From contig NZ_PXYJ01000002.1 in NCBI RefSeq assembly GCF_003012815.1, positions 62,001 to 126,000 on the forward strand: 64,000 bases of DNA, given 5' to 3'. This document shows positions 21,639-58,005 of the stretch, one piece after another. The position numbers and the translations under genes were made by a program. The notes beneath the pieces are model-generated. The model was not told where the DNA came from and did no database searches. It saw only the letters and a program-made list of their open reading frames with translations. Source of the DNA: Allosphingosinicella vermicomposti (lineage in GTDB: Bacteria; Pseudomonadota; Alphaproteobacteria; Sphingomonadales; Sphingomonadaceae). Each line of letters opens with the position of its first letter. Position 1 is the stretch's first letter.

Positions 21639-21775
21639 CATGAAGGCAAGACAAGTCTCTCTCTTCACCGCCCCGAGTGAGAGTTATTGTTGCTAAAATG
21701 CAAATCTAATGCAATTGAGCCGGCCGGGTCGCGATGGCGATCGATAATGGTTCGGTTCCAAAGGGGGGAATTGAA

Positions 21776-22054
21776 GTGATCCGTTCAGAACTCGTGCAAA
21801 AGCTTTGCGACGACCATCCCGATCTCAGGATCAGGGAAATCGAACGCGTCGTATCGTCCTTCTTCGACGCGATTTCGGATCAGCTTCAGCAGGGCGGCCG
21901 CGTTGAGCTGCGTGGCTTCGGCGCCTTCTCCACCCGCGACCGCGACGCCCGCAAGGGTCGCAATCCGCGTACCGGCGAAGCCGTCGATGTCGACGCCAAG
22001 CGCGTTCCCTATTTCAAGCCCGGCAAGGAAATGCGCGAGCGCCTGAACGTCTGA
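21776..22054 (+). CDS. ihfB: Integration host factor beta subunit
   Basis: Nucleoid protein of 92 residues that bends DNA as a heterodimer with IhfA. The N-terminus [17 protein letters not shown] and the signature [28 protein letters not shown] with the DNA-inserting proline region are typical of IHF-beta. The start is GTG at 21776, seven bases after AGGGGGGAA; an in-frame ATG at 21734 would add 14 residues not found in homologues. It lies alone after the rpsA terminator, a common place for ihfB. Confidence 0.94.
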
Positions 22055-22080: not shown

Positions 22081-22146
22081 CCCGCTAGGGCTGAGCCTGT
22101 CGAAGCCCGTTCCAGCCGTCCTTCGACAAGCTCAGGACTAGCGGGG
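22081..22146. repeat. Dispersed inverted repeat, copy 3
   Basis: Third copy of the family at 5711 and 11201: CCCGCTAGGGCTGAGCCTG..GAAGCCCG on the left and CCTTCGACAAGCTCAGGACTAGCGGG on the right. The outer arms CCCGCTAG / CTAGCGGG are perfect here. It lies 26 bases after the ihfB stop. Confidence 0.9.
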
Positions 22147-22212
22147 AATTAAGGTTGAATCTCAAGAGGACTTGACCCGACCCGCCTCCCCCGTCCACGG
22201 GATTGCAACAGT

Positions 22213-22262
22213 GCGGACGTGGCGGAATGGTAGACGCCAGAGACTTAAAAACTGTTTCCTTA
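22213..22262 (+). pseudogene. Decayed 5' half of a tRNA-Leu(UAA), intronless
   Basis: The first 50 bases resemble the spliced form of the intact tRNA-Leu at 22444: the acceptor and D-arm part GCGGACGTGGCGGAAT-GGTAGACGC and the anticodon-loop stretch GACTTAAAA are shared, but no intron interrupts it. The anticodon stem no longer pairs well and no T arm or 3' acceptor strand follows; the next 180 bases are unrelated. It is best read as a tRNA pseudogene or integration remnant. Confidence 0.65.
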
Positions 22263-22443
22263 CTCGGTTCGTCGCATTTTTTGAGCATAAGAAATGGCTG
22301 AGATCCGCCATTCTTGACGCGACGGGTTGCGATGGAAGCCGAGCTTGCTGGCGCTGAGAACCAAATAAGAACCACGCGGAAGCGATTCGCGGGAAAGTTC
22401 TGGCATTCGCCGGAGTGGTGTGGCACGTCGCCCCAGCACACGT

Positions 22444-22760
22444 GCGGACGTGGCGAAATCGGTAGACGCAGCAGACTTTAATTGGAGTGCCCGGGCGGAA
22501 ACGCCCGGAGTAGAACCGCTCAAAGTCGGGGAACGCTAACGGGCTCTGCGGATCCCTAGGCCAATCCCGAGCCAAGCCCCTCCCCTTACGGGCGGCGGAA
22601 GGTGTAGAGACTGGACGGGCGGCGCCTAAAGCCTTCATGGCCATGGCGAAGGGACAGTCCGGACCACGAACGCTTCCCTGAAGCGGCGGTGAAAGCCGAA
22701 GTGGTGCGAAAATCTGTTATCCTCCGGGGTGTGCGGGTTCGAGTCCCGCCGTCCGCACCA
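22444..22760 (+). tRNA. tRNA-Leu(UAA) interrupted by a group I intron
   Basis: The 5' exon is 22444-22478 (GCGGACG acceptor strand, D arm, ending in GCAGACTT) and the 3' exon 22709-22760 (AAAATCTG onward, with T arm GCGGGTTCGAGTCCCGC, acceptor CGTCCGC and encoded CCA). Joined, they give an 87-nt class II tRNA with anticodon stem GCAGA/TCTGT around CTTAAAA, anticodon UAA, and a long variable arm (ATCCTCCGGGGT). The break falls after the anticodon U34, the same place as in the cyanobacterial and plastid tRNA-Leu introns. Confidence 0.95.
22479..22708 (+). ncRNA. Group I intron in tRNA-Leu(UAA)
   Basis: 230 nt. P1 forms between exon ACTT (22475-22478) and intron GAGT (22485-22488), placing a U-G wobble at the 5' splice site. 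P2 is CCGGGCG-GAAA-CGCCCGG. The conserved core shows CTCAAAGTCGGGGAA, CCAATCCCGAGCCAAGC (P4-P6 region, with TCGGG/CCCGA pairing) and GGAAGGTGTAGAGACTGGAC with the later partner CAGTCC (P7, guanosine site). The intron ends in G (22708). No reading frame for a homing endonuclease is present. These blocks closely follow the cyanobacterial tRNA-Leu intron. Confidence 0.93.
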
Positions 22761-22952
22761 TAGGCGTCTGAATAACTACACCATTCGGATTCGGCATATG
22801 CTCGACGGGTGAGCCGTGGCTAACGGGTCCGATTCACTAACGTCGCCTGATGACGAACGAGAATGAATAGGTGTAATCAGGTATCCGCGCCTGCTTAGCG
22901 ACCGGTAGGCTCTCTTCGTTCGGGGAAATTAAATTGGGCTGGAAAGCAGCGA

Positions 22953-24862: not shown

Positions 24863-27800
24863 TCACGAAGATGCAGGCAGCGGACCGCCAAGAGCATCCT
24901 CGTCGTCATAGTCGCCTCGCACATGGCGCCGCCCCTTGTCGCGAAGCAGGAGCTTGCTCAGCGCGGGAAGAACGAACAGGGTCAAAGCGGTCGAAGTAAT
25001 CAAGCCTCCGATCACCACCACCGCCAGGGGCTTCTGGACTTCCGCACCCTGGCCGGTAGCAAGCGCCATCGGCACAAAGCCCAACGAAGCCACAAGGGCC
25101 GTCATCAAAACGGGCCGCAGCCGCTTGATTGCGCTGTCGTGGATCGCTTGATCGATTGGCACCCCCTGCGATCGCAAATCTTCCACCGAGCTCATGAGCA
25201 CCAACCCGTTCAGAACGGCGATACCGGAGAGTGCAATGAACCCCACGGCTGCCGAGATTGAGAAAGGCAAGCCAGCAACGGCCAGGCCGAACACGCCGCC
25301 GGCTAATGCGAGGGGGATCGCCGAGTAGATGGCCAAAGCCGGCCGCACCCCCCGCAAACCAATGAACAACAGGCCGAAGATCGCACTGAAAACGACCGGG
25401 ATCATGATCGACAGCCGTCGACTTGCGGCTTGCAGGTTCTCGAACTGGCCTCCCCATTCGATGAAAACCCCCGGAGGCAGGTCGACGTTCTGCTCAACTG
25501 CGGCCTGTGCATCGGCCACATAGGAGCCAAGATCCCGGCCTCGCACGTTGGCCTGCACCACAACACGGCGCTGGCCATTCTCTCGACTTACCTGATTGAC
25601 GCCCTCGGACATCTGGAACGTAGCCAGCTCACGCAGGGGCACCGATTGTCGCACGCCAGATCCGGTATCCGGAAGCATCACTGGGAGAGCGCCAGCTGCT
25701 TCAAGATCATTCCTGGTGGCATTCTCCAATCGAACGACGATGTCGAAGCGCCTGTCTCCTTGGAAGACAATGCCTGCCTCCCGTCCCCCCAAGGCCGCAG
25801 CCACTGTGTCGGTGACATCTTCGATGGCCAGACCGTAACGCGAGATTGCGTCCCGGTTGAATTGCAGATCCAGAGTTGGGAAGCCTGCTGTCTGCTCCAC
25901 CCGAAGGTCCGCTGTTCCTTCGATGCGGCTCATGGCCTGAGAGATACGGCGGGCTACCTGCCCGAGCTGATCAAGGTCTTCCCCGAACACTTTCACAGCG
26001 ATATCGCCGCGAACCCCAGCAATCAGTTCGTTGAACCGCATTTCGATCGGCTGACTGAGCTCGTATGCGTTTCCGGTAAGGTTTTCCATCCTCTGCTCGA
26101 TACGCTCGATCACCTCTTCCTTGGTTTCGACACCCTCAGGCCATTGCTCCTTCGGCCGCAGGATGATGAACGAGTCCGAGGCATTCTGCGGCATTGGATC
26201 CGTGGCAACTTCTGCGGTGCCCGTCTTTGAATAAACATAAGCCACCTCAGGGAGAGACGAGATGGCCCGCTCCACCCGAAGTTGCATGTCCTTGGATTGT
26301 TCGAGCGATGTCGACGGAATGCGCAACGTCTGCATCGCGAGGTCACCCTCGTCCAGCTGCGGGATGAACTCCCGGCCAAGACTGGTAAACATGAGAGCCG
26401 CGATTAGGAACGTACCCACGCCAGCACCAATCCATGGCCAGGGTCGCGCGAGAACTCGACCCAGGACCGGTTCATACCTGCTCTTCGTCCATGCGATCGC
26501 CCTCACCTCTTTCTCGGAGACTTTGCCCCGTATGAGGAGAGCAACCATGGCAGGAACGAAAGTCAGAGAAAGGATGAATGCGCCTGCGAGCGCAAGCATG
26601 ACCGTGACCGCCATCGGCGTGAACATCTTGCCTTCCACACCGGTGAAGGTCAGCAGCGGCGCAAATACGAGGAATATGATGGCCTGCCCGTATATTGTCG
26701 GCTTCACCATCTCTCGGGCGGCCTCGAACACTTCGTGCAGCCTCTCGGGCAGCGTCAGCAGACGACCTTCGTGGTGCTGGCGTTCGGCCAAACGCCTCAA
26801 GCAGTTTTCAACGATGATGATAGAACCGTCAACGATGAGGCCGAAATCCAGCGCACCGAAGCTCATCAGGTTGCCTGAAACGCCCAACCTATTCATCCCG
26901 ATCGCCATCATTAGAAACGAGAGCGGAATTACGAGAGTGGCGATGATCGCCGCTCGAATATTTCCAAGGAGGAAGAACAGCACAGCGATCACCAGCAGAG
27001 CGCCTTCCACGAGGTTCTTCTCGACCGTGGCGATCGTGGATTCGACGAGTGAGGATCGGTTGTAGACCGGGGTTACCATAACCCCTGGCGGAAGTGACTT
27101 TGAGACCTCCTTCAGCCTTCCAGAGACGGCATCTGCAACAATGCGGCTATTGCCCCCCGCAATCATGAGCGCCGTTCCGATGACCGTTTCGCGGCCCTCC
27201 ATGGAAGCAGCACCCGTGCGAAGTTCACCGCCGACGCGAACGGTCGCTACGTCCCCAACTCGGACTGGCACGCCGCCTCGGTTAGCAACTGCTGCACTTG
27301 CGATTTCGTCGATGTGACGAATTCGAGCGTCAGCGCGCACGAGATAGGCTTCTCCGGCACGCTCAACGAAGTTGGCACCAACCGAAATATTGGCTCGCTC
27401 AAGGGCCTCGGCGAGTTCCGAGAACGAGATACCATAGGCCGCCAGGCGCCCCGGGTCGGGCTGAACCAGGAATTGCTTCTCATAGCCGCCGATGGAGTCG
27501 ATACCAGCTACTCCCTCCACGGTACGCAATTGCGGCCGCACCACCCAGTCCTGGACCGTACGGAGGTACGCCAACCGCGAGACGTCATCGGTCAGCCGCT
27601 CACCCTCGGGCGTAAGGTAGGATTCGTCCGGCTGGAAGCCGGGTCGTCCCGGGATTTTCGGAGATTTGGCTGTGGCAGTCGGCGCGTAATGCACGGACCA
27701 CATCAGAACCTCGCCCAGTCCGGTGGAGACCGGCCCCATTTGGGGCTCAACTCCTGCAGGTAAACTCTCTCGAGCTTGGCTGAGGCGCTCAGCTACCTGC

Positions 27801-28123
27801 TGGCGGGCGAAGTAGATGTCGATGTTCTCGTCGAACACTGCCGTGACTTGACTGAACCCGTTCCGGGAAACGGACCGGGTGTGATCCAGTCCGGGGATTC
27901 CGGCGAGTGCCGTCTCCATTGGAAAGGTCACAAGCCGCTCCATATCGAGCGGGCCGAAAGCAGGTGCGGATGTGTTGACCTGAACCTGTTTGTTCGTGAT
28001 GTCCGGCACCGCGTCGATCGGCAGCCGGAAGAGCTGGATCGCACCAAACACGGCGACCAAGAGGGTGACGATCACGACGGCCCAGCGGAAGCGGACCGAA
28101 GCGTCTAGAATACGATCTATCAT
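24863..28123 (-). CDS. czcA: Heavy-metal RND efflux pump CzcA
   Basis: 1086-residue inner-membrane proton-driven pump of the HME-RND family. It has 12 membrane helices and two large periplasmic loops (about residues 35-335 and 560-870). TM4 holds DFGLIVDGSIIIVENC, close to the DFG-x3-DGA-x3-VEN signature of the Zn/Co/Cd group (HME1), with Ser in place of Ala. The N-terminus (VTLLVAVFGAIQLFRLPIDAVPDITNKQV, shown in part) is typical. Together with CzcB and CzcC it spans the envelope and exports metal from periplasm or cytoplasm to the outside. Confidence 0.95.
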   Translation of the reverse strand: MIDRILDASVRFRWAVVIVTLLVAVFGAIQLFRLPIDAVPDITNKQVQVNTSAPAFGPLDMERLVTFPMETALAGIPGLDHTRSVSRNGFSQVTAVFDENIDIYFARQQVAERLSQARESLPAGVEPQMGPVSTGLGEVLMWSVHYAPTATAKSPKIPGRPGFQPDESYLTPEGERLTDDVSRLAYLRTVQDWVVRPQLRTVEGVAGIDSIGGYEKQFLVQPDPGRLAAYGISFSELAEALERANISVGANFVERAGEAYLVRADARIRHIDEIASAAVANRGGVPVRVGDVATVRVGGELRTGAASMEGRETVIGTALMIAGGNSRIVADAVSGRLKEVSKSLPPGVMVTPVYNRSSLVESTIATVEKNLVEGALLVIAVLFFLLGNIRAAIIATLVIPLSFLMMAIGMNRLGVSGNLMSFGALDFGLIVDGSIIIVENCLRRLAERQHHEGRLLTLPERLHEVFEAAREMVKPTIYGQAIIFLVFAPLLTFTGVEGKMFTPMAVTVMLALAGAFILSLTFVPAMVALLIRGKVSEKEVRAIAWTKSRYEPVLGRVLARPWPWIGAGVGTFLIAALMFTSLGREFIPQLDEGDLAMQTLRIPSTSLEQSKDMQLRVERAISSLPEVAYVYSKTGTAEVATDPMPQNASDSFIILRPKEQWPEGVETKEEVIERIEQRMENLTGNAYELSQPIEMRFNELIAGVRGDIAVKVFGEDLDQLGQVARRISQAMSRIEGTADLRVEQTAGFPTLDLQFNRDAISRYGLAIEDVTDTVAAALGGREAGIVFQGDRRFDIVVRLENATRNDLEAAGALPVMLPDTGSGVRQSVPLRELATFQMSEGVNQVSRENGQRRVVVQANVRGRDLGSYVADAQAAVEQNVDLPPGVFIEWGGQFENLQAASRRLSIMIPVVFSAIFGLLFIGLRGVRPALAIYSAIPLALAGGVFGLAVAGLPFSISAAVGFIALSGIAVLNGLVLMSSVEDLRSQGVPIDQAIHDSAIKRLRPVLMTALVASLGFVPMALATGQGAEVQKPLAVVVIGGLITSTALTLFVLPALSKLLLRDKGRRHVRGDYDDEDALGGPLPASS

Positions 28124-34612: not shown

Positions 34613-35321
34613 TCGCAACCTCCTGAGGTGGGGTTTCCGTCTCAAGCTCGCGCGACCAGTCGATCGCATTGACGTAGAGACCGAGAGGGTTCTTCCGAAG
34701 TTCGTCCGCCTTTCGCGGCGTCTGCACCGCAACCGTAAGGATGGCCGTCCACCGGTCTGTTCCAACAAGGCTCCCGCGCTCGAAAGCCGTCTCGGTCCAT
34801 TTCACCTGAAAGGAGTTCTCGGAGGCGCGGACAACGCTGGTTACCTGCACCGATACGCTGCGCGTGCCGATGGCCGCGAAGGGATTGTTGGCGCGCGCAT
34901 GCTCGTTCAAGAACAAGGCGGCCTTGTCGGCCGCAAAATCATATGCGGAGAGCCAGTTTTCGCGGACGAGCACGGCATCGGTCGAAACCGACCGCACATT
35001 TTTGATGAACTTGGCCAAATGCCAGGCGATCTGCGCGTCGGTGGGCCGGTACTCGGCGATGGCGGGCGAAACGGCGCGCGCTTCGCCTAACCGATCCACC
35101 TCCACGACATAGGGCGCGACACGGCTTTGCGTTGATTGCCACAACAGTCCGCCCGAAAGGCCTGCCGAAATGCCGAGGCACCCGAGCGCGGCGAGACGCC
35201 AGTTGCGCGCTTGCACTCGCGCGGATCCGATCCGCTCATCCCAGAGTTGCGCGGCTTTCTGGTATGGCGTGACCGGCTCAGGCGTCCGGCCGTATCGCTG
35301 TATCGTTCGTCTGAAGATCAT
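34602..35321 (-). CDS. trbF: Conjugal transfer protein TrbF (VirB8-like)
   Basis: 239 residues, bitopic inner-membrane protein of the mating channel. A cytoplasmic head (PYQKAAQLWDERIGSARVQA) leads to one helix (LAALGCLGISAGLSGGLLW) and a periplasmic VirB8 fold with VAPYVVEVDRLGEARAV and DRWTAILTVAVQTPRKADELRKNPLGLYV (given in part). It shares a base with the trbL stop and overlaps the trbG start, typical of tight trb coupling. Confidence 0.93.
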   Translation of the reverse strand: MIFRRTIQRYGRTPEPVTPYQKAAQLWDERIGSARVQARNWRLAALGCLGISAGLSGGLLWQSTQSRVAPYVVEVDRLGEARAVSPAIAEYRPTDAQIAWHLAKFIKNVRSVSTDAVLVRENWLSAYDFAADKAALFLNEHARANNPFAAIGTRSVSVQVTSVVRASENSFQVKWTETAFERGSLVGTDRWTAILTVAVQTPRKADELRKNPLGLYVNAIDWSRELETETPPQEVANEE

Positions 35322-36607
35322 CAGTCCTCTCGCTCCTTGATGTCTGGATTGGCAGGCGCGCTTGGGCGGTCGCCCTCACGAATGGCCTGGACGGCTGCGT
35401 GCCGTCTTTGACGGTTCGTTTGCTCTGTCCGAAGGCGGCGCGCCCACTCAGGCGCCGCGTCAGAAGAAACACCGGCCCCTCCTTGTGCTGGGCTGCCGCT
35501 CCACGCGGCTTCTCGGCCAGCTTCTGCCGCGGCGCCGAGGCCCAAACCGCGCCCCGCCACTGAAGCGGCATTGGCGGCAACCGCCTTGAGACCGGCGCCG
35601 ACGCCGGCCGCGCCTGTTGCGCCGGACGTTTCCTTTCCGAGGCTGTAGGATGCGGCGGCAGATGCACCCACTGCAGTGCCCGATCGAATTGCGGCGAGGC
35701 CGCCGGAGCCCAGCGCACGCGCGCCAGATATCGCAGCCCCGGCACCAAGGGCCGCACCGCCCGCGATCGCGCCGACAGTTCCGACGGCCGCGCCGGCGCC
35801 AAGCTGCGGGGCCCCGGCGACGAGGCCGGAAGCGATCCCCGGGCCAAAGATGCCGAGGCCGAACAGCGCCATGGAAGCCAACACGAGAGACATGGCCTGC
35901 CCGATGTCGGGCTCCTGACCTTTCAAGGCGCCGACGAACTCACCGAAGAAGCCGGACCCGATCCCGACGATCACGGCCATCACCATGACCTTGATGCCCG
36001 AAGCCACGACGTTACCGAGAACGCGCTCGGCGAGGAAGCTCGTTCGATTCCAGAGAGCGAACGGGACAAGGACAAAGCCTGCAAGGCTGGTCAGCTTGAA
36101 CTCGATGATGGTGATAAAAAGCTGCACCGAAAGAACGAAAAAGGCGACGATCACCACAAGCCAGGCGACCAGCAGAACTACAATCGTCAGGAAGTTGTCG
36201 AAAAAGCTGGTGAAGCCGAGAAGCTCACTCACCTGCTCAAGCAACGGCCAGGCCGCCTCGAACCCGGTGCCGGCGAGCTTTCCAGGCTTCAGGAGATCGT
36301 CCGCGCTCACGGCGCCCCCGCCTGCGGTCAGGCCGAGCCCCGCAAAGGATCGGAACACAATCTCTGAAAGGGACGAAAAGCTCCCGAGAATGAATGCAAA
36401 CGTCCCGACGTAAAGTATCTTCTTGATGAACTTTCCAAGGACATTGTCCCCGCCCTCCATCGCCCAGAACAGGCCAGCGAGCGTGATGTCGATGCCAATG
36501 AGCACGGTCGTCAGAAAAGCGACGTCGCCGCCGAGCAGCCCGAAGCCGCTGTCGATGTAGCGGATGAAGGTGTCCATGAACCGGTCGATGACGTTCAGGT
36601 CGCCCAT
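35321..36607 (-). CDS. trbL: Conjugal transfer protein TrbL (VirB6-like)
   Basis: 428 residues, polytopic inner-membrane channel component. The N-terminus NVIDRFMDTFIRYIDSGFGLL is typical of TrbL. About six helices follow up to residue 250, including LTSLAGFVLVPFALWNRTSFLAERVLG. The C-terminal 170 residues are Gly/Ala-rich and disordered (GAGAAVGTVGAIAGGAALGAG in part) and end in a charged tail. It lies 30 bases after trbJ. Confidence 0.93.
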   Translation of the reverse strand: MGDLNVIDRFMDTFIRYIDSGFGLLGGDVAFLTTVLIGIDITLAGLFWAMEGGDNVLGKFIKKILYVGTFAFILGSFSSLSEIVFRSFAGLGLTAGGGAVSADDLLKPGKLAGTGFEAAWPLLEQVSELLGFTSFFDNFLTIVVLLVAWLVVIVAFFVLSVQLFITIIEFKLTSLAGFVLVPFALWNRTSFLAERVLGNVVASGIKVMVMAVIVGIGSGFFGEFVGALKGQEPDIGQAMSLVLASMALFGLGIFGPGIASGLVAGAPQLGAGAAVGTVGAIAGGAALGAGAAISGARALGSGGLAAIRSGTAVGASAAASYSLGKETSGATGAAGVGAGLKAVAANAASVAGRGLGLGAAAEAGREAAWSGSPAQGGAGVSSDAAPEWARRLRTEQTNRQRRHAAVQAIREGDRPSAPANPDIKERED

Positions 36608-40029: not shown

Positions 40030-40355
40030 CCGACCAGCGCCCCGCCCCCGAAGCTGAAGAAGCTGAGGAAGAAGGAGGAGGCCGCAAAGGCGATGGACAG
40101 ACCGAAGACGATCTGGATCAGCCTTCGAAATCCGCCGCTCGTCTCGCCGAAGGCGAGCGACAGTCCTGTAGTGATGATGATGATCACCGCGATGATCTTG
40201 GCGACAGGACCCTGCACGGATTCGAGAACCTGCTGGAGCGGCTCTTCCCAAGGCATCCCCGATCCTGCCGCCTGCGCCGCGATCGAGAAGGCGGAGCCCG
40301 CTGCAACAGCAAGCATGGCCGTGAAGCGTGGACGGACTAGAGGGTTGGCAGTCAT
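40026..40355 (-). CDS. trbC: Conjugal transfer pilin TrbC (VirB2-like)
   Basis: 109 residues. A long leader (MTANPLVRPRFTAMLAVAAG to SIAAQAAGSG) precedes the mature pilin with two hydrophobic helices: VAKIIAVIIIITTGLSLAFGE and LIQIVFGLSIAFAASSFFLSFF (each in part). VirB2 pilins are cut after AxA and, in the TrbC branch, cyclised by the TraF peptidase; a TraF gene is present at 55347. It overlaps trbB and trbD by 4 bases each. Confidence 0.93.
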   Translation of the reverse strand: MTANPLVRPRFTAMLAVAAGSAFSIAAQAAGSGMPWEEPLQQVLESVQGPVAKIIAVIIIITTGLSLAFGETSGGFRRLIQIVFGLSIAFAASSFFLSFFSFGGGALVG

Positions 40356-41350
40356 TGACGATGCTCCTTGGTAGCTGGGGGGAGGATGAGATCGGTGAGC
40401 GCGTAGTCGCCTTCGGGCGTCAGCCCTTCGACTGCGGCGATGCTCTGGACGCGGCGACCAATGCCGCGACCGGCGATGAAGACGACGAGGTCGATCGCCT
40501 CGGCGATCAGTATGCGCGGGACCGTGACGACGCTTTCCTGCACCAGCTGCTCAAGGCGATAGAGAGCCGAGCGCGCGCTGTTCGCGTGGACGGTCGCGAT
40601 GCCGCCGGGGTGGCCCGTGTTCCAGGCCTTCAGCATGTCGAGAGCCTCGGCGCCACGAACCTCACCGATGATGATGCGATCGGGGCGGAGGCGGAGCGTC
40701 GAGCGGACGAGGTCCGCCATCGTTACGACGCCAGGGCGCGTGCGGAGTGCCACGCAATCGGCGGCCGCGCATTGAAGCTCGCGCGTATCCTCGATCATGA
40801 TCACGCGCTCGTCGCGCGTCGCCATCTCGGCGAGCAGCGCATTGGCGAGCGTCGTCTTTCCAGAACTCGTGCCGCCGGCGATGAGCAGGTTTCGGCGATC
40901 GGCGACCGCACGGCGCATCGCTTCGGCGGCAGCCGGAGCGATGATCCCATCGCTCACATAATCCGCCATTGTGTAGATGCGGGATGCGGGCTTGCGGATG
41001 GAGAAGCACGGGCTGCTGACGACTGGCGGTAGCAATCCCTCGAACCGCTCGCCTGCGGTGCCGTCCTCCCGCGCCGGAAGCTCGGCGCTGACGATCGGAC
41101 TGTCGGCATGAACCTCGGTGCGGGCGTGGCTCGCGACGAGGCGAATGATGCGCTCAACCTGCGCGGGATCGACGCGAACGCCGATCGCGGCCTTCCCCGC
41201 GCCGAGCCGGTCGAGCCACAGCATGCCGTCGGGGTTCACCATGACTTCGACCACCAGCGGATCGCTGAGCGCGACCGCGATCGAAGGCCCCATTGCGGTC
41301 CGGAGCATGACGCGTCGGCGCTCAAGCGATTCCGATGTCGAGCTGCTCAT
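40352..41350 (-). CDS. trbB: Conjugal transfer ATPase TrbB (VirB11-like)
   Basis: 332-residue hexameric secretion ATPase at the cytoplasmic face. Walker A GGTSSGKTTLANALL (about residue 160), Asp box VIMIEDTRELQC, His box region MAWNTGHPGGIATVHANSA-like (KAWNTGHPGGIATVHANS) and Walker B-like RIIIGEVRGAEALDML. N-terminal domain VMVNPDGMLWLDRLG. It overlaps the RHH gene by 4 bases and trbC by 4, so it heads the trb structural genes. Confidence 0.95.
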   Translation of the reverse strand: MSSSTSESLERRRVMLRTAMGPSIAVALSDPLVVEVMVNPDGMLWLDRLGAGKAAIGVRVDPAQVERIIRLVASHARTEVHADSPIVSAELPAREDGTAGERFEGLLPPVVSSPCFSIRKPASRIYTMADYVSDGIIAPAAAEAMRRAVADRRNLLIAGGTSSGKTTLANALLAEMATRDERVIMIEDTRELQCAAADCVALRTRPGVVTMADLVRSTLRLRPDRIIIGEVRGAEALDMLKAWNTGHPGGIATVHANSARSALYRLEQLVQESVVTVPRILIAEAIDLVVFIAGRGIGRRVQSIAAVEGLTPEGDYALTDLILPPATKEHRQ

Positions 41351-41758: not shown

Positions 41759-43795
41759 TCAGAAGCTCGGCAGGAGGTCGTCGTCCGATCCTCCGCCTTC
41801 GTTCATTGCGTGCGCCCGAGCGACGGCGCTGAGGCCTCGGATGCGGTCCATCGCGCGGGCATCGAGCGGCGCTTCGCCGTCGTCATCGGCGAGGCCGAGA
41901 AGGTCCGAGGGCTCTGGGGGGGCGACCGGCGCCACGGCTTCTTCGCCAAGGCCGGGGTGACGCTGCTGTTGGATGCCGCCTTCGTCCTCATCCGACCGCA
42001 CGGGATCGCTGGCGGTGGCGAGCCGCTGGTCCGTGCCGCGCACGAAGGATCCCCAGTCATTCGAGCGGGCTATCGGATGATCGGTCCAGCCGTTCTCGGC
42101 TAGCGCCGGTGCGTCCCTCAGTCTGGCCGTGAAATTGCGATCTTCATAATAGCGCAGCTTCCGGGCGCGGATCGGGGACAGACCGGAGACGAGGACGAGC
42201 TCATCCTCGGGCGGCAGTTGCATGACTTCGCCAGGGGTAAGGAGCGGTCGGGCCGTTTCCTGCCGGCTAACCATGACGTGCGCGAGCCAAGGCGCCAGCC
42301 GGTGACCGGCATAGTTGCGCATGGCGCGCTGCTCGGTCGCCGTCCCGAGCGCATCGGAGATGCGGCGCGCTGTCCGCTCGTCATTGCTGCTGAAGGCGAC
42401 CCTCACATGGCAGTTGTCGAGGATGGAATTGTTCTCACCATAGGCCTTCGAGATCTGGTTCAGCGACTGCGCGATGAGGAAGGCGCGGATGCCGTAGCCC
42501 GCCATGAAGGCGAGCGCTGTTTCGAAGAAGTCGAGGCGGCCGAGCGCAGGAAACTCGTCCAGCATCATCAGCACCTGGTGCTTGCGCGCCTTCGTGGGGT
42601 CGCCTTCGAGCCGCTCTGTCAGCCGGCGTCCGATTTGATTCAGCACCAGTCGCACGAGCGGCTTGGTCCGCGAAATGTCGGACGGTGGAACGACCAGATA
42701 CAACGAGACCGGGCGCGCTGCGTCGACGAGATCGGCGATCCGCCAGTCGCAGGCTGCCGTCGTCGCGGCGACGGTGGGATCGCGATAGAGGCCGAGGAAC
42801 GACATTGCGGTCGACAGCACGCCGGAGCGCTCATTCTCGCTTTTGTTAAGGACTTCGCGCGCGGCGGACGCCACGACCGGATGCACCTTGGGCTGCTCGG
42901 GCGTCCCCAGATGGTTCGTCGCCATCATGCGCTTCAGTGTTTCGACGAACGAGCGCTGCGGGTCGGAAAGAAATGTCGCCACGCGCGCGAGCGTCTTTTC
43001 CTCCTCGGCATAAAGGATGTGAAGGATCGCGCCGACGAGCAGGGAATGGCTGGTCTTTTCCCAGTGCGAGCGCCGCTCCAGCGCGCCCTCAGGATCGACG
43101 AGGATGTCCGCGATGTTCTGGACGTCGCGCACTTCGTGCTCGCCGCGCCGGACCTCCAGCAGCGGATTGTAGCGCGCGGAGCGCATGTCGGTCGGATTGA
43201 ACAGCAGGCAGTGGGAGAAGAGCGAACGCCAGCCTGCGGTGATCTGCCAATTCTCGCCTTTGATGTCGTGGATGACGGCGGAGCCGGTCCAGCTGAGCAA
43301 GGTCGGCACGACAAGACCGACGCCCTTGCCGGACCGGGTGGGCGCGAAGGCCATGACATGCTCTGGCCCGTCGTGCCGAAGATAGCGGCCGTGGCAGTGG
43401 CCGAGGAACACGCCGGCATCGCCGTGCAGGCCTGCGCGCGTGATCTCGCTTTCCATTGCCCAACGGGCTGAGCCGTAGGTCGTGACCTGCGCGCTCTGCC
43501 GAGCGCGCCACAAGGATCCCGCTATCGCGGCCGCGCAGCCGAGAAAGCCGCTCGTCCCGGCGATGGTTCCTGCCCGGTCGAAAACGTGCGGAGCATAGGC
43601 TTCGTAATGATACCACCAGGCGAAAATCTGCCACGGGCGATAGACGGGCGCATTGCCAACCAGGAACCAGGCTGCGCCGAGCTCGGGCTGATAGGCGAGC
43701 GCGGCGGCAGCCCATTGGGTTGCCGCCCACACGCCGCCGATTACGATCGCGAAGACGACGAGGATCTGGCCGATGAGGAGCTTGGTTGGTGTCAC
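41759..43795 (-). CDS. traG: Type IV coupling protein TraG (VirD4-like)
   Basis: 678 residues. It docks the relaxase-DNA complex to the mating channel. Two N-terminal membrane helices (IGQILVVFAIVIGGVWAA, and a second near 85-105) precede the ATPase domain with Walker A PTRSGKGVGLVVPTLLSW, TraG signature VIHDIKGENW and Walker B LMMLDEFPALGRLDFFE. Segment LIAQSLNQISKAYGENNSILDNCHVRV (in part) is also typical. It is the first gene of the leftward transfer block. Confidence 0.95.
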   Translation of the reverse strand: MTPTKLLIGQILVVFAIVIGGVWAATQWAAAALAYQPELGAAWFLVGNAPVYRPWQIFAWWYHYEAYAPHVFDRAGTIAGTSGFLGCAAAIAGSLWRARQSAQVTTYGSARWAMESEITRAGLHGDAGVFLGHCHGRYLRHDGPEHVMAFAPTRSGKGVGLVVPTLLSWTGSAVIHDIKGENWQITAGWRSLFSHCLLFNPTDMRSARYNPLLEVRRGEHEVRDVQNIADILVDPEGALERRSHWEKTSHSLLVGAILHILYAEEEKTLARVATFLSDPQRSFVETLKRMMATNHLGTPEQPKVHPVVASAAREVLNKSENERSGVLSTAMSFLGLYRDPTVAATTAACDWRIADLVDAARPVSLYLVVPPSDISRTKPLVRLVLNQIGRRLTERLEGDPTKARKHQVLMMLDEFPALGRLDFFETALAFMAGYGIRAFLIAQSLNQISKAYGENNSILDNCHVRVAFSSNDERTARRISDALGTATEQRAMRNYAGHRLAPWLAHVMVSRQETARPLLTPGEVMQLPPEDELVLVSGLSPIRARKLRYYEDRNFTARLRDAPALAENGWTDHPIARSNDWGSFVRGTDQRLATASDPVRSDEDEGGIQQQRHPGLGEEAVAPVAPPEPSDLLGLADDDGEAPLDARAMDRIRGLSAVARAHAMNEGGGSDDDLLPSF

Positions 43796-52402: not shown

Positions 52403-54379
52403 CTACGAAACTCCCTGTCCTCTCGATCTCCCAAATGTCCAGTTTACGTCGCTACCATTCGGCCGGACGATTCCCGTGACCTGCTTGCCGATCCTTTCCT
52501 CCAGCACCCGGCGCCAGGGCACGAGCGTGAACTCCTTGGATTTCTCCACCAGAGCATAACGCCCGCCGACAAGATCGATCTGGCGCGCCAGCTTCCCTTC
52601 TATTCGTTCGCCAGCCTTTGCTTCCGTAAAACGCAGGCCGAGTTCGTCCATTAATTGCGCGCCGGCCCGAAGCAGTTCCCGCCGCTGCAGTGTCGCGAGC
52701 ATGCCCGCGCGATAGACGGTGCCGCCACTCCGTTCTTCGGCAAGGCCTTGGTCAAGCAGCCATTGGCGCCGTATTGCCTGCGCCTCCCGCACGGCGCGTC
52801 CAAAGCCGGCGTCTCGCAGTGGGAGTGGCGTGGCTGCAGTCAATTCCCGGTCGAGCCAAGTTGGCGCGTCAGCGCCCAGCTGCCTTTCCAGCGGCTCCCT
52901 GGAGAGAAGCTCGACCGCGACCGGCCGCGCCCGCGCCTGCCGCTCCTCATAGGACGCTGCGGCCGCCAGATAGCCGTCCCCCAGGTTCCAGCTTCCGTCA
53001 GGCTGTCGATCCAGTGTGGCGCCGCTCCTCCGGACGGCCTCAAGTCGCCGCACATGTGTTGAGGCGAACGCCTCTGTGGCCTGTGGATCGTGCCGCAGGT
53101 GCAGATCGACGCTGTAGCGGCCGTCATTCTCGGCCGCGATGTTCGCGATCATCCGGTCTACCGGCCGCACCCCCGTTTTTCGTCCGCTGACGCACACGAT
53201 CGCGTTGTCGGGTGCAAGGTCGGCGACATCGCCGCTCCCGACATCGGCATAGTGAATACGTCCGTCGAGGCCGTCGACCAGCAGATAATAGCGACCGCTG
53301 AGCTCGTCGGAGAGACCGCGTGCGAGCACGCGTCCGACGACTTCCCGCTGCCCTTCTACGGTTGGATCGAAAACCGCATAATCGCACAGCGCGCGCTCGG
53401 CACCTTTCGCACCAAGCTGGCGGTGCATCGTCTTGATGATATCGCCGCGCTCTCCCATTCGCCGGAGCGTCGTCTCCAGATCCTCGGCAAGATGCCAGCG
53501 CCCGGGCGCGGTCTCGTCGGCCAAACCGAGACGTGTCAGTTTGACGAGGCGGCGAGTCAGCATCGCCTGCCGGAACGGACCGTCCGCCTGCGGGCTCACG
53601 AGACCTTCGACACCTTTTGCACGGAGCAATCTACGGTCGAGGCTCGTCAGCCTCTCCTGCTCGACTTCCCTCTCCAGCCGCGTTTCGATGTCACGATCGG
53701 TACGGGGTCCAAGGTCCAGCTGCACGATCTCGGCGGCACGCTCCCGCATGCCGCTCGCCATGTAGTCACGCGCGACGATCAAATCCTTGCCGCGCTCGTC
53801 CCTGCCGCGCAGCATGATATGGGTGTGAGGATGGCCGGTGTTGAAATGATCGACCGCGACCCAGTCCAGCTTGGTCCCGAGATCCTCTTCCATCTGCGTC
53901 ATCAGGCGCCGCGTAAGCGGCTTCAAGTCATCGTAGCTGCTGCCGTCTTCCGCCGAGACGATGAACCGGAACTGGTGGCGGTCCCCCGCCGCGCGTTCCA
54001 TGAAGTCCTTGCCGTCGGCGCGGTCGCTTGCCGCGTTGTAGAGCGCGCCAGGCTCACCGTCGCGAGTGACACCATCGCGCTGGATATAGCGCAGATGCGC
54101 ATGGGCGCCGGCGAGCGCCTTTCCGGCAAGCTTGACGATCCTCGACTTGATGACGACGCGCCGCTGCCGGAAGGCAGCCATGCGGTTACGCGCGGCGAGC
54201 ACCCTTCCTACCCCCGCACCCCGTCCGATACGATTGCCGTGAAAGCCGCTGTTGCGCGCCGCCCCGACGCCAGCAAGGTTCGCGGCGCGAAGCACCTGGT
54301 GCAGATATTTGCGGCCGCGCTTCGATCCCATTGACCGGATTTTGCCGAGCCGCGGTTCGAATGTCTCCTCGCCCGCCAT
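52403..54379 (-). CDS. Relaxase of the RlxS/VirD2-like type
   Basis: 658 residues. It nicks oriT and leads the strand through the channel. The N-terminal part has VIKSRIVKLAGKALAGAHAHLRYIQRDG (in part), FRFIVSAEDGSSYDDLKPLTRRLM (in part) and the three-histidine metal motif HFNTGHPHTHIMLRG (about residues 178-192). The remaining two thirds matches the DUF3363 region (SLDRRLLRAKGVEG, RGLSDELSGRYYLLVDGLDGRIHY in part, KSKEFTLVPWRRVLEERIGK). AAAGGAGAAGCGA precedes the ATG. It normally follows traG directly in these elements; here an 8.5-kb cargo block lies between them. Confidence 0.92.
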   Translation of the reverse strand: MAGEETFEPRLGKIRSMGSKRGRKYLHQVLRAANLAGVGAARNSGFHGNRIGRGAGVGRVLAARNRMAAFRQRRVVIKSRIVKLAGKALAGAHAHLRYIQRDGVTRDGEPGALYNAASDRADGKDFMERAAGDRHQFRFIVSAEDGSSYDDLKPLTRRLMTQMEEDLGTKLDWVAVDHFNTGHPHTHIMLRGRDERGKDLIVARDYMASGMRERAAEIVQLDLGPRTDRDIETRLEREVEQERLTSLDRRLLRAKGVEGLVSPQADGPFRQAMLTRRLVKLTRLGLADETAPGRWHLAEDLETTLRRMGERGDIIKTMHRQLGAKGAERALCDYAVFDPTVEGQREVVGRVLARGLSDELSGRYYLLVDGLDGRIHYADVGSGDVADLAPDNAIVCVSGRKTGVRPVDRMIANIAAENDGRYSVDLHLRHDPQATEAFASTHVRRLEAVRRSGATLDRQPDGSWNLGDGYLAAAASYEERQARARPVAVELLSREPLERQLGADAPTWLDRELTAATPLPLRDAGFGRAVREAQAIRRQWLLDQGLAEERSGGTVYRAGMLATLQRRELLRAGAQLMDELGLRFTEAKAGERIEGKLARQIDLVGGRYALVEKSKEFTLVPWRRVLEERIGKQVTGIVRPNGSDVNWTFGRSRGQGVS

Positions 54380-56958: not shown

Positions 56959-58005
56959 CTAGACCCGGCCTGAACCCTCCACAGACCCGTCAGCGGCTGC
57001 CGCGTTCGCACGATCCTGGAGGTCCCGGATGCGATCCATAAGCGCCTCGAAGGGCTCCGCTTCGTCGAGCAGCAATCCGTCCTCGACCATCCGCCGATAG
57101 TCGTCGGCGAGGGCGCGGCGGCTGTCTCCCTCGGGCACGAGCCTTAAGTCCCCTGCGACGGCGGCGCCATAGTCGATCGTCTGCCGGCCGGCATCTTTCT
57201 CCGCGAAGAACCATCTCTTGTGGGCGGCGACGGCAGCGGCGATGGACCGGTCGGCGATCGCCGCCTCGGCGAGCCCGGCTTCATCGAGCTTGGCAAGGTC
57301 GTACCAGTGGCGCGCGAAGCGGTCGCCGCGCAAGGGGCCTTCCGAGCAGAAGACATGGGCGGCGGTCGCCTTCTCCCAGAAGGTCCGCTCGGCGCGCATG
57401 ACGCGCGGCCTCGCGACCGGAAAGGCGACCCCTTCGACGTGAGGCGCGGCATCGCAGGTAACCTCGTACGGCGCGCTCGGTTCACCGGTTGAACGGGCGC
57501 CGAATTCCAGCATGACGCGCGGGAGGACATAGCCGGAGCCCGTGGTCAGCGCCTCATATTCGACGAAGATCTTGTCCCCCTCGGCCCGAGCCTTGGCCGG
57601 GAGCGCATCGGCGGCGAGCCGCGCCTGGATGAGCGGCAACGCCTTCTCCGCGATCCATTGCGGAAGCCGCGTGCGAACCGCCTTGCTCCATCTCTTCTCT
57701 TCGCTCCGGGTTGCGGGAAGCGCGTCTTCCGCGCCATCGACGAGGTCGGGAACGAGCTTGCGGATGTCGTAGGTGAGGTCGATATCCTCGGAGAAACGGC
57801 GGATCGCCCCATAGACCTTGGAGAGCGACGTGCCGCCCTTGAAGACGAGATCGTCGCCCAAGGAATCGCCAAACAGGGCTCCGAGCGTCCAGACGACCCA
57901 GATGTCCTTTTCCAGAAGGTGCGGCGGTCGCCCCGAGGCGGAAGCGGCGACGCTCAGCACTTCGAGGCGGTCTTCGGGCGAAAGCCCGAAATAGGCCTCA
58001 GCCAT
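56959..58005 (-). CDS. AbiEii-type nucleotidyltransferase toxin (DUF1814)
   Basis: 348 residues. [17 protein letters not shown] and the nucleotidyltransferase motif [12 protein letters not shown] followed by [12 protein letters not shown] (metal-binding Asp pair) match AbiEii. AbiEii toxins transfer nucleotides to tRNA and stop growth, giving phage resistance or element maintenance. A later conserved patch is [13 protein letters not shown] and [12 protein letters not shown]. It overlaps its presumed antitoxin by 8 bases, as usual for type IV abiE pairs. Confidence 0.92.

Follow-up and report, generated by a model that had tools for sequence, protein, structure and literature searches.

A group I intron in the putative replacement tRNA-Leu(UAA) gene of an integrative conjugative element, and the pairing of such introns with the integration target

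The window analyzed here, a 64,000-nucleotide stretch of an Allosphingosinicella vermicomposti contig, holds one end of an integrated element that has very probably split the native tRNA-Leu(UAA) gene of its host and carries an intron-bearing copy of that gene as the replacement. In the mechanism we propose from sequence comparison, an integrative conjugative element of ~81 kb would enter the one tRNA-Leu(UAA) gene of the host, an intronless gene, at its anticodon loop, and a complete tRNA-Leu(UAA) gene just inside the left end of the element would replace the lost function.

Native gene halves and the intron-bearing copy

The 5′ half of a native intronless tRNA-Leu(UAA) gene lies at 22213..22250 (+), begins ~230 bp upstream of the intron-bearing gene, and ends in the anticodon loop, forming attL of the element; element DNA fills the interval between this junction and the replacement tRNA (22251..22443, +). 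A search of the window's own genome (G000) placed the 3′ half, which begins in the anticodon loop, on contig C2 (G000:C2:165143-165197), 81 kb from the 5′ half and adjoining a tyrosine integrase. Both junctions have in common the 7-bp core CTTAAAA (22244-22250 in the left junction). Rejoined at this core, the halves are called as tRNA-Leu(taa) and equal the intact gene of a genome from the same genus (G008) at 85 of 86 letters; neither half alone is called as a tRNA. The 5′ half is preceded by rpsA and ihfB (the ihfB-like gene at 21734..22054, +) and the 3′ half is followed by tesA and an ABC gene, whereas in G008 ihfB, an intact intronless tRNA-Leu(UAA) gene, tesA, and the ABC gene adjoin (the names rpsA, ihfB, and tesA rest on resemblance and context). 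A tandem duplication of the tRNA is ruled out by the position of ihfB and tesA/ABC on the outer sides of the two halves. When 20 loci of relatives (L028-L047) were read, ARAGORN called an intact intronless tRNA-Leu(taa) in 19; of these 19, 16 belong to the window's genus and 17 adjoin ihfB. From the agreement of the rejoined halves with the G008 gene, together with these intact intronless genes, we infer that the native gene was intronless and was then split; it was not restored because the junctions share only 7 bp.

The copy inside the element consists of exon 1 (22444..22478, +), a group I intron of 230 nt after U34 (22479..22708, +), and exon 2 with an encoded CCA (22709..22760, +). With introns allowed, ARAGORN placed a single tRNA-Leu(taa), interrupted by an intron of 230 nt (gactt-intron-aaaat), at 22444-22760, and it called the spliced 87 nt as tRNA-Leu(taa) with encoded CCA; with introns disallowed, it called no tRNA in 22100-22900. 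The initial annotation had read this interval as a tRNA-Leu(UAA) gene that is split by a 230-nt group I intron and whose exons join into a full tRNA with encoded CCA, and had named an intron-permitting tRNA finder as a check; these calls, along with the fold conserved in 43 genes described below, agree with it on each point. Its proposed check with the Rfam group I model came out in part: Intron_gpI (RF00028) matched 22469-22631 at 23.8 bits (E 9e-4 for 801 bases), and this score stays below the model's gathering score of 50, which is a curation cut-off and not a structural feature. A scan of the whole window with Rfam at the gathering score did not find the group I intron, and minimum free energy folding of the split gene gave no signal either way (z −0.84).

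Comparative structure is more telling. Among the window's genome and 97 relatives, 9 of the 98 (the window's included) have a full-length match to the intron-bearing gene, and we aligned 43 such genes to a structure drawn by hand that comprised the tRNA stems and P1, P2, P3, P4, P6, P7, P8, and P9 (P5 was not drawn). Over these 43 genes 97.9% of cells are paired, and two-sided changes occur in 28 of 60 pairs (shuffled mean, 11.0; as high in 0 of 500 shuffles). When the 3′ partners were slid by 1 to 3 columns pairing fell to 30 to 45%, a comparison that is biased in favor of the drawn structure, since it was taken from the window's own sequence. The pseudoknotted P3/P7 core is present with P4, P6, and P8 (cells paired: P3, 100%; P4, 99.5%; P6, 100%; P7, 100%; P8, 100%), and P3, P7, and P8 each show two-sided changes; in the window, P3 pairs 22516-22521 with 22617-22622 and P7 pairs 22609-22613 with 22655-22659. 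The U-G pair that the initial annotation had noted in P1 is found at the 5′ splice site in 43 of 43 aligned genes, window included, and at the 3′ splice site the intron ends in the expected terminal G (..GGTGCG, followed by AAAATCTG). Nor was a homing endonuclease seen among the ORFs listed at the intron, where those of at least 80 amino acids that overlap it are antisense and extend into the exons. On this comparative evidence the split gene is a tRNA-Leu(UAA) gene interrupted by a group I intron, for which splicing is predicted.

It could be argued that the split gene is dead and that something else reads UUA and UUG codons; after all, an intron-blind tRNA search misses it. We regard this as hardly credible. 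The compensatory changes over the 43 genes fall in tRNA stems as well as intron helices, and no other UAA or CAA tRNA was seen in this genome. It has 43 hits to RF00005, of which 41 are above the cut-off, the two below it being the 3′ half and the intron-bearing gene. The eight long hits read as one tRNA-Tyr, four tRNA-Ser, and three tRNA-Leu with anticodons UAG, CAG, and GAG; among all hits no other tRNA-Leu(UAA) and no tRNA-Leu(CAA) was seen, one of the 33 shorter ones (71 to 74 nt) having been read, as Ala. A competing functional tRNA-Leu(UAA), the finding that the initial annotation had said would count against it, was thus sought in the genome and only the two halves turned up. With tRNA-Leu(CAA) not seen either, UUA and UUG are both left with the intron-bearing gene as their sole candidate, and the absence of others together with its conservation suggests that it is the working tRNA. 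Intron-blind searches can report such genomes as lacking tRNA-Leu(UAA); run in this way, ARAGORN misses the gene here.

By gene content, the ~81-kb island is an integrative conjugative element. An integrase, a relaxase, a coupling protein, and type IV secretion genes all lie between attL and attR, those identified being TrbL, a conjugative transfer protein (35321..36607, −), the conjugative transfer ATPase TrbB (40352..41350, −), the conjugative coupling protein TraG (41759..43795, −), and the relaxase RlxS (52403..54379, −). Its cargo includes an RND efflux transporter (ACR_tran; 24863..28123, −) and a multicopper oxidase. The integrase is a tyrosine integrase of 422 amino acids with Pfam Phage_integrase and Arm-DNA-bind_3 domains; its ORF starts 182 bp from the right junction core, and from this place beside the junction it presumably made the insertion. 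At E 1e-120 its relatives were found in no second genome among 298. A temperate phage was considered and rejected, given the conjugation genes TraG, TrbB, TrbL, and RlxS. An AbiEii-type nucleotidyltransferase (Pfam) also lies inside the element, at 56959-58005 of the window.

Target and intron across the int17 loci

The same layout recurs with another integrase family, which we name int17 after genome G017. In G007 and G017 the order is 5′ half, integrase, intron-bearing tRNA-Leu(UAA) gene 70 to 79 bp after the integrase, island, and 3′ half, and the core is flanked on both sides by repeats (e.g., TAGCGCATT or TAGCACATT); G037 has a similar layout with 24 bp from integrase to tRNA, its 3′ half not having been found. 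Layouts of this kind with an int17-type integrase are present in G007, G017, S. echinoides, S. lactosutens, and Caulobacter sp. Root655, and in all five the rejoined halves are called as tRNA-Leu(taa) and single halves as nothing. No int17 member was matched in the window's genome at E 1e-60, and the integrase of the window's element had no tblastn match among the fetched int17 loci at E 1e-3. Two tested members matched Pfam Phage_integrase weakly, below the cut-off, and three matched no NCBIfam model; the family to which these three belong marks a large set of islands.

Members of int17 were detected in 21 of 298 genomes of the family, 11 of 385 of the class, and, with a second member as query, 24 of 396 of the order. 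In the named genome collection, relatives occupied 515 stretches, and the best 80 of the 515, which were fetched, belong by record title to Alphaproteobacteria (59), "Proteobacteria" (6), and others (15). Isolates include Sphingomonas, Sphingobium, Caulobacter, Brevundimonas, and Bradyrhizobium; Acidobacteriota, Planctomycetota, and Verrucomicrobiota are represented by metagenome bins only, for which misbinning is possible. None of 50,697 phage records matched the int17 protein. There were two loci in viral contigs and 25 matches in 72,556 plasmid records, of which 5 cover more than 80% of the query, and the two plasmid records that were read lack a tRNA, an intron core, and an attachment core within 3 kb. 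A tRNA-Leu(UAA) query against 11 named genomes that carry UAA elements matched 46 times; no intact tRNA-Leu(UAA) was among the 7 that spanned the full query, all of which are tRNA-Leu(UAG) or tRNA-Leu(CAA), and the rest, read for all but 16 partial matches, proved to be halves, intron genes, or different tRNAs. The same query found the intact UAA gene in the control, G008.

Removing 9 loci with a letter-identical integrase from the 107 int17 loci left 98 (near-identical ones, e.g., L097 and L127, were kept), and a tRNA-Leu 5′ half lies upstream of the integrase in 78 of these, after L114, an intronless CAA gene with a spurious left junction, was dropped from the counts. The target and the intron go together. 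Among the 44 loci with a UAA core, there are 39 intron-bearing replacements, one intronless CAA gene (L122), and four without a replacement found, so that UAA-splitting elements carry an intron-bearing tRNA-Leu(UAA) in 39 of the 40 with a readable replacement. The four (L181, L182, L184, and L196) are on contigs that end 146, 319, 534, and 2,151 bases after the integrase match, respectively, and a looser scan shows an intron core in L182. The 34 loci with a CAA core comprise 29 intronless CAA genes, one with an intron (L180), L152, and three with none found, which by the same scan makes the replacement intronless in 29 of 30. L152 has an intronless CAA gene at +9.2 kb, which is its replacement, and an intron core in this locus was rejected as a chance match. 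L154, L166, and L178 have no CAA replacement within 4.5 kb (L178 has one at +9.9 kb). A further 19 loci, in which the scan found no Leu half, hold 3 intron genes, 6 intronless CAA genes, 2 UAG, 1 Tyr, and 7 none; one of the three with an intron gene, L137 from Caulobacter sp. Root655, has a UAA half further upstream.

The pairing rule was written down before a later sample of 41 loci was drawn from the class and order searches, of which 12 were already known and 29 were new. New loci with a Leu half followed it throughout, UAA with intron in 5 of 5 and CAA without intron in 3 of 3, in a sample that is partly dependent on the earlier one, some new integrases being close to earlier ones; the remaining new loci are at tRNA-Met, tRNA-Arg, or tRNA-Leu(UAG) or show no tRNA.

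On a tree of 88 integrases (in which L152 is mislabeled and which omits 10 loci, including L180, whose integrase stretch was short), the UAA/intron label changes 14 times, at least 10 of them on well-supported branches. The sign test, which excluded L152 and 5 loci where no replacement had been found, had 65 rows (37 UAA/intron, 27 CAA/intronless, 1 exception). Six independent supported pairs went the same way in 5.5 cases on average and the other way in none, a borderline result (P, 0.03 to 0.06) that leaves L180 outside the tree. The intron tree tells a different story in places: L153 is sister to L192 (96/87), whereas their integrases are far apart on the integrase tree. This disagreement indicates that cassettes move between integrases, which weakens the independence of the target switches.

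The initial annotation had left open vertical descent versus transfer. For this genome the question is answered: the native gene was intronless, with both halves still present, and the intron copy lies inside an integrated element. An old tRNA-Leu(UAA) intron inherited by descent, with the island beside it unrelated, would find a parallel in four other genera (G026, G036, G049, and G056) whose intron-bearing tRNA-Leu(UAA) is next to ihfB and in which no anticodon-loop halves were found. The halves of the native gene, however, flank the element, 19 relatives have intact intronless genes (16 of the same genus, 17 beside ihfB), and on an unrooted tree the four native-place introns fall among element introns (G026 with L131, 90/91); we therefore consider inheritance by descent very improbable. 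The intron of the window and that of G014, which is likewise beside ihfB and likewise yielded no anticodon-loop halves, stand apart from the others (99/85; bootstrap not settled). G049 has a 29-nt fragment of a tRNA 3′ end on another contig (C4:4133-4161), outside the anticodon loop. The intron genes beside ihfB fit element remnants that took over as the native gene, in so far as an unrooted tree can be read in this way.

The integrase core and a possible role for the intron

Lying after U34, the intron sits in the anticodon loop that forms the integrase core, and by this structure the copy would have to splice to be used. Were the core open in the copy, the integrase could recombine the copy with a nearby attP or attL, in which case the copy would be lost, and a second element could kill the host; there are about even odds that the intron, or a changed core, prevents such recombination. 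Put in terms of the intron, it may be a shield, removing the integrase core from an essential spare tRNA while splicing restores the core in RNA only, a proposal that in our judgment could fall either way. If it is true, endonuclease-free tRNA introns would be both maintained and spread by the elements, and hosts with such a gene would be immune to further elements of this target. It would also explain how such introns moved between tRNA-Leu(UAA) genes of Alphaproteobacteria with no homing endonuclease involved and offer a reason for bacterial tRNA introns sitting in anticodon loops.

What the cores themselves look like bears on this proposal. In all 38 UAA loci in which both could be read, exon 1 of the replacement retains the GACTT of the target, and thus the intron is what separates the copy from the attachment core. 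In the intronless CAA copies the core itself is mostly altered: the native core is GACTCAAAA and the replacement core is GATTCAAAA, and in 28 of 29 the five bases up to and including the first anticodon base are not those of the target. Over these 29 loci, GACTC occurs in 20 targets and 1 copy, and copies shuffled among the CAA targets gave a mean of 3.9 equal, with 1 or fewer in 4.2% of shuffles. The later sample added 2 of 3 CAA copies with a differing 5-mer. L180 has a CAA copy with an intron after U33, and its spliced core, as read, is the full GACTCAAAA. Several loci speak against a shield. An intronless CAA gene with the intact core GACTCAAAA is present in L158 and L173 (near copies of each other), in L159 and L272 the 5-mer of the copy equals that of the target, and L170 has the two 5-mers the other way round; in addition, the Tyr element L162 has an unchanged loop core in its copy, and L122 combines a UAA-type junction with an intronless CAA gene.

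The intron might instead be a passenger, a real possibility in our view if not quite an even one: the ancestral UAA replacement would have had an intron, and the core and tRNA cassette would have been swapped among integrases with no benefit to the element. Introns of distant integrases can be sisters (L153 and L192), as expected of cassettes that move as units, and target switches need not then be independent intron origins. Against this, no intronless UAA replacement was found beside 44 intron-bearing ones with a UAA junction (39 plus 5), even though an element encounters an intronless homologue in each host that it enters. The one intron in a CAA replacement, that of L180, is in a gene whose spliced core, as read, equals the attachment core, the core is changed in all but one of the 29 intronless CAA copies, and the different integrase of the window shows the same pairing.

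One locus may record what happens to a replacement without a shield. L120, from an Erythrobacter metagenome-assembled genome, has a junction like the window's left one (GACTTAAAAACTGTTT), followed by exon 1 letters equal to those of the window's replacement through GCAGACTT, and this copy is itself split by an int17 element carrying its own intron gene. The pattern of the window's left junction was found in 2 of 397 genomes, the window's own and G287, and the integrase of G287 is letter-identical to that of L120. It seems that an unshielded replacement was hit here; a search for the far, 3′ junction of this nested insertion did not find it, and we therefore infer rather than read whether the hit gene had an intron. 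The 4 kb upstream of the recognized junctions showed no second nested case. The replacement is ~0.2 kb from the attachment site in the window and usually ~1.4 kb in int17 elements.

Known systems and related observations

Group I introns in the tRNA-Leu(UAA) genes of cyanobacteria and plastids sit in the anticodon loop and are not known to encode an endonuclease. To our knowledge, all of these are in chromosomal or plastid genes, whereas the tRNA-Leu(UAA) introns described here ride on integrative elements. The finding joins endonuclease-free tRNA introns with anticodon-loop integrases and would give a transport mechanism for such introns as well as a possible benefit to the carrier. In the open-licence literature, searched by titles and the starts of abstracts, none of the matches listed joined a tRNA intron with an integrase or island.

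The closest parallel is tRNA-dependent lysogeny in mycobacteriophages and phages of Actinobacteria (Guerrero-Bustamante and Hatfull 2024, PMC10865867), in which, according to the sections available, a tyrosine integrase with an 8- to 17-bp core breaks a host tRNA gene without restoring it, and which in the phage Gaia involves tRNA-Leu-CAA, with the tRNA downstream of int. Both systems use a short core inside a tRNA gene that is not restored (CTTAAAA in the window). Given its conjugation genes, the element would work like tRNA-dependent lysogeny but is not lysogeny; the carriers in the sections of PMC10865867 available are phages, whereas here they are a conjugative element and int17 islands with a replacement that has a group I intron. 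The word "intron" occurs in PMC10865867 in a reference title only, and the sections available do not take up how the replacement escapes the integrase. Among Alphaproteobacteria, parts of a study of Sinorhizobium meliloti prophages (PMC11476347) describe elements that substitute a host tRNA gene, as here, in a main text from which the word "intron" is absent; PMC12429752, likewise available in part, is also on Sinorhizobium prophages.

Other group I introns have been linked to mobile DNA. IStrons likewise partner a group I intron with mobile DNA (PMC4227781, in part), but there the intron makes the transposon insertion harmless, whereas here it lies in the element's spare tRNA. Group I introns in the T-loop of tmRNA are mostly free of endonuclease genes and occur in a gene often used by islands for integration, and the parts of PMC11915505 available describe no replacement copy, the word "integrase" being absent from its main text. 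As of 2014, according to the available part of PMC3984707, every known phage intron lay in a protein gene, even though phages carry many tRNA genes.

At L087:9838-10146 (G052) a tRNA-Ile(CAU)-like gene, whose exons join around CAT by eye, is interrupted by a group I intron, with no integrase among the ORFs listed beside it. Similar intron cores are present by eye in a tRNA-Lys(UUU)-like gene (L089:2110-2398, G086) and a tRNA-Arg(UCU)-like gene (L090:9964-10311, G090), both named otherwise by ARAGORN.

The wider int17 set shows further arrangements. L215 and L224, 22 kb apart on one contig of Sphingobium cupriresistens, have two tRNA-Leu 3′ halves and are perhaps tandem elements. In L139, L189, and L254 the integrase is followed by an intact tRNA-Leu(UAG), and a core-like stretch upstream runs in the opposite direction (AACCTAAA). 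L158, L173, L169, and L194 have a core upstream of the integrase without a tRNA half and are possibly unintegrated attP forms. Complete class I tRNAs (Met, Arg, Lys, Phe) lie immediately upstream of int17 relatives in L249, L251, L252, L255, L256, L271, and L273-L275 and likewise in L278-L280, L283, L284, L099, L101, L103, and L151, with no replacement tRNA beside them within at most ~1.5 kb (4.5 kb for L151; less at contig ends); as an exception, L250 has tRNA-Met on both sides. At class II tRNAs (Leu, Tyr) a replacement is mostly present, and L162, which splits tRNA-Tyr(GUA), carries an intronless tRNA-Tyr(GUA) 53 bp after its integrase. Perhaps a class II tRNA, with its long 3′ half, is more difficult to restore.
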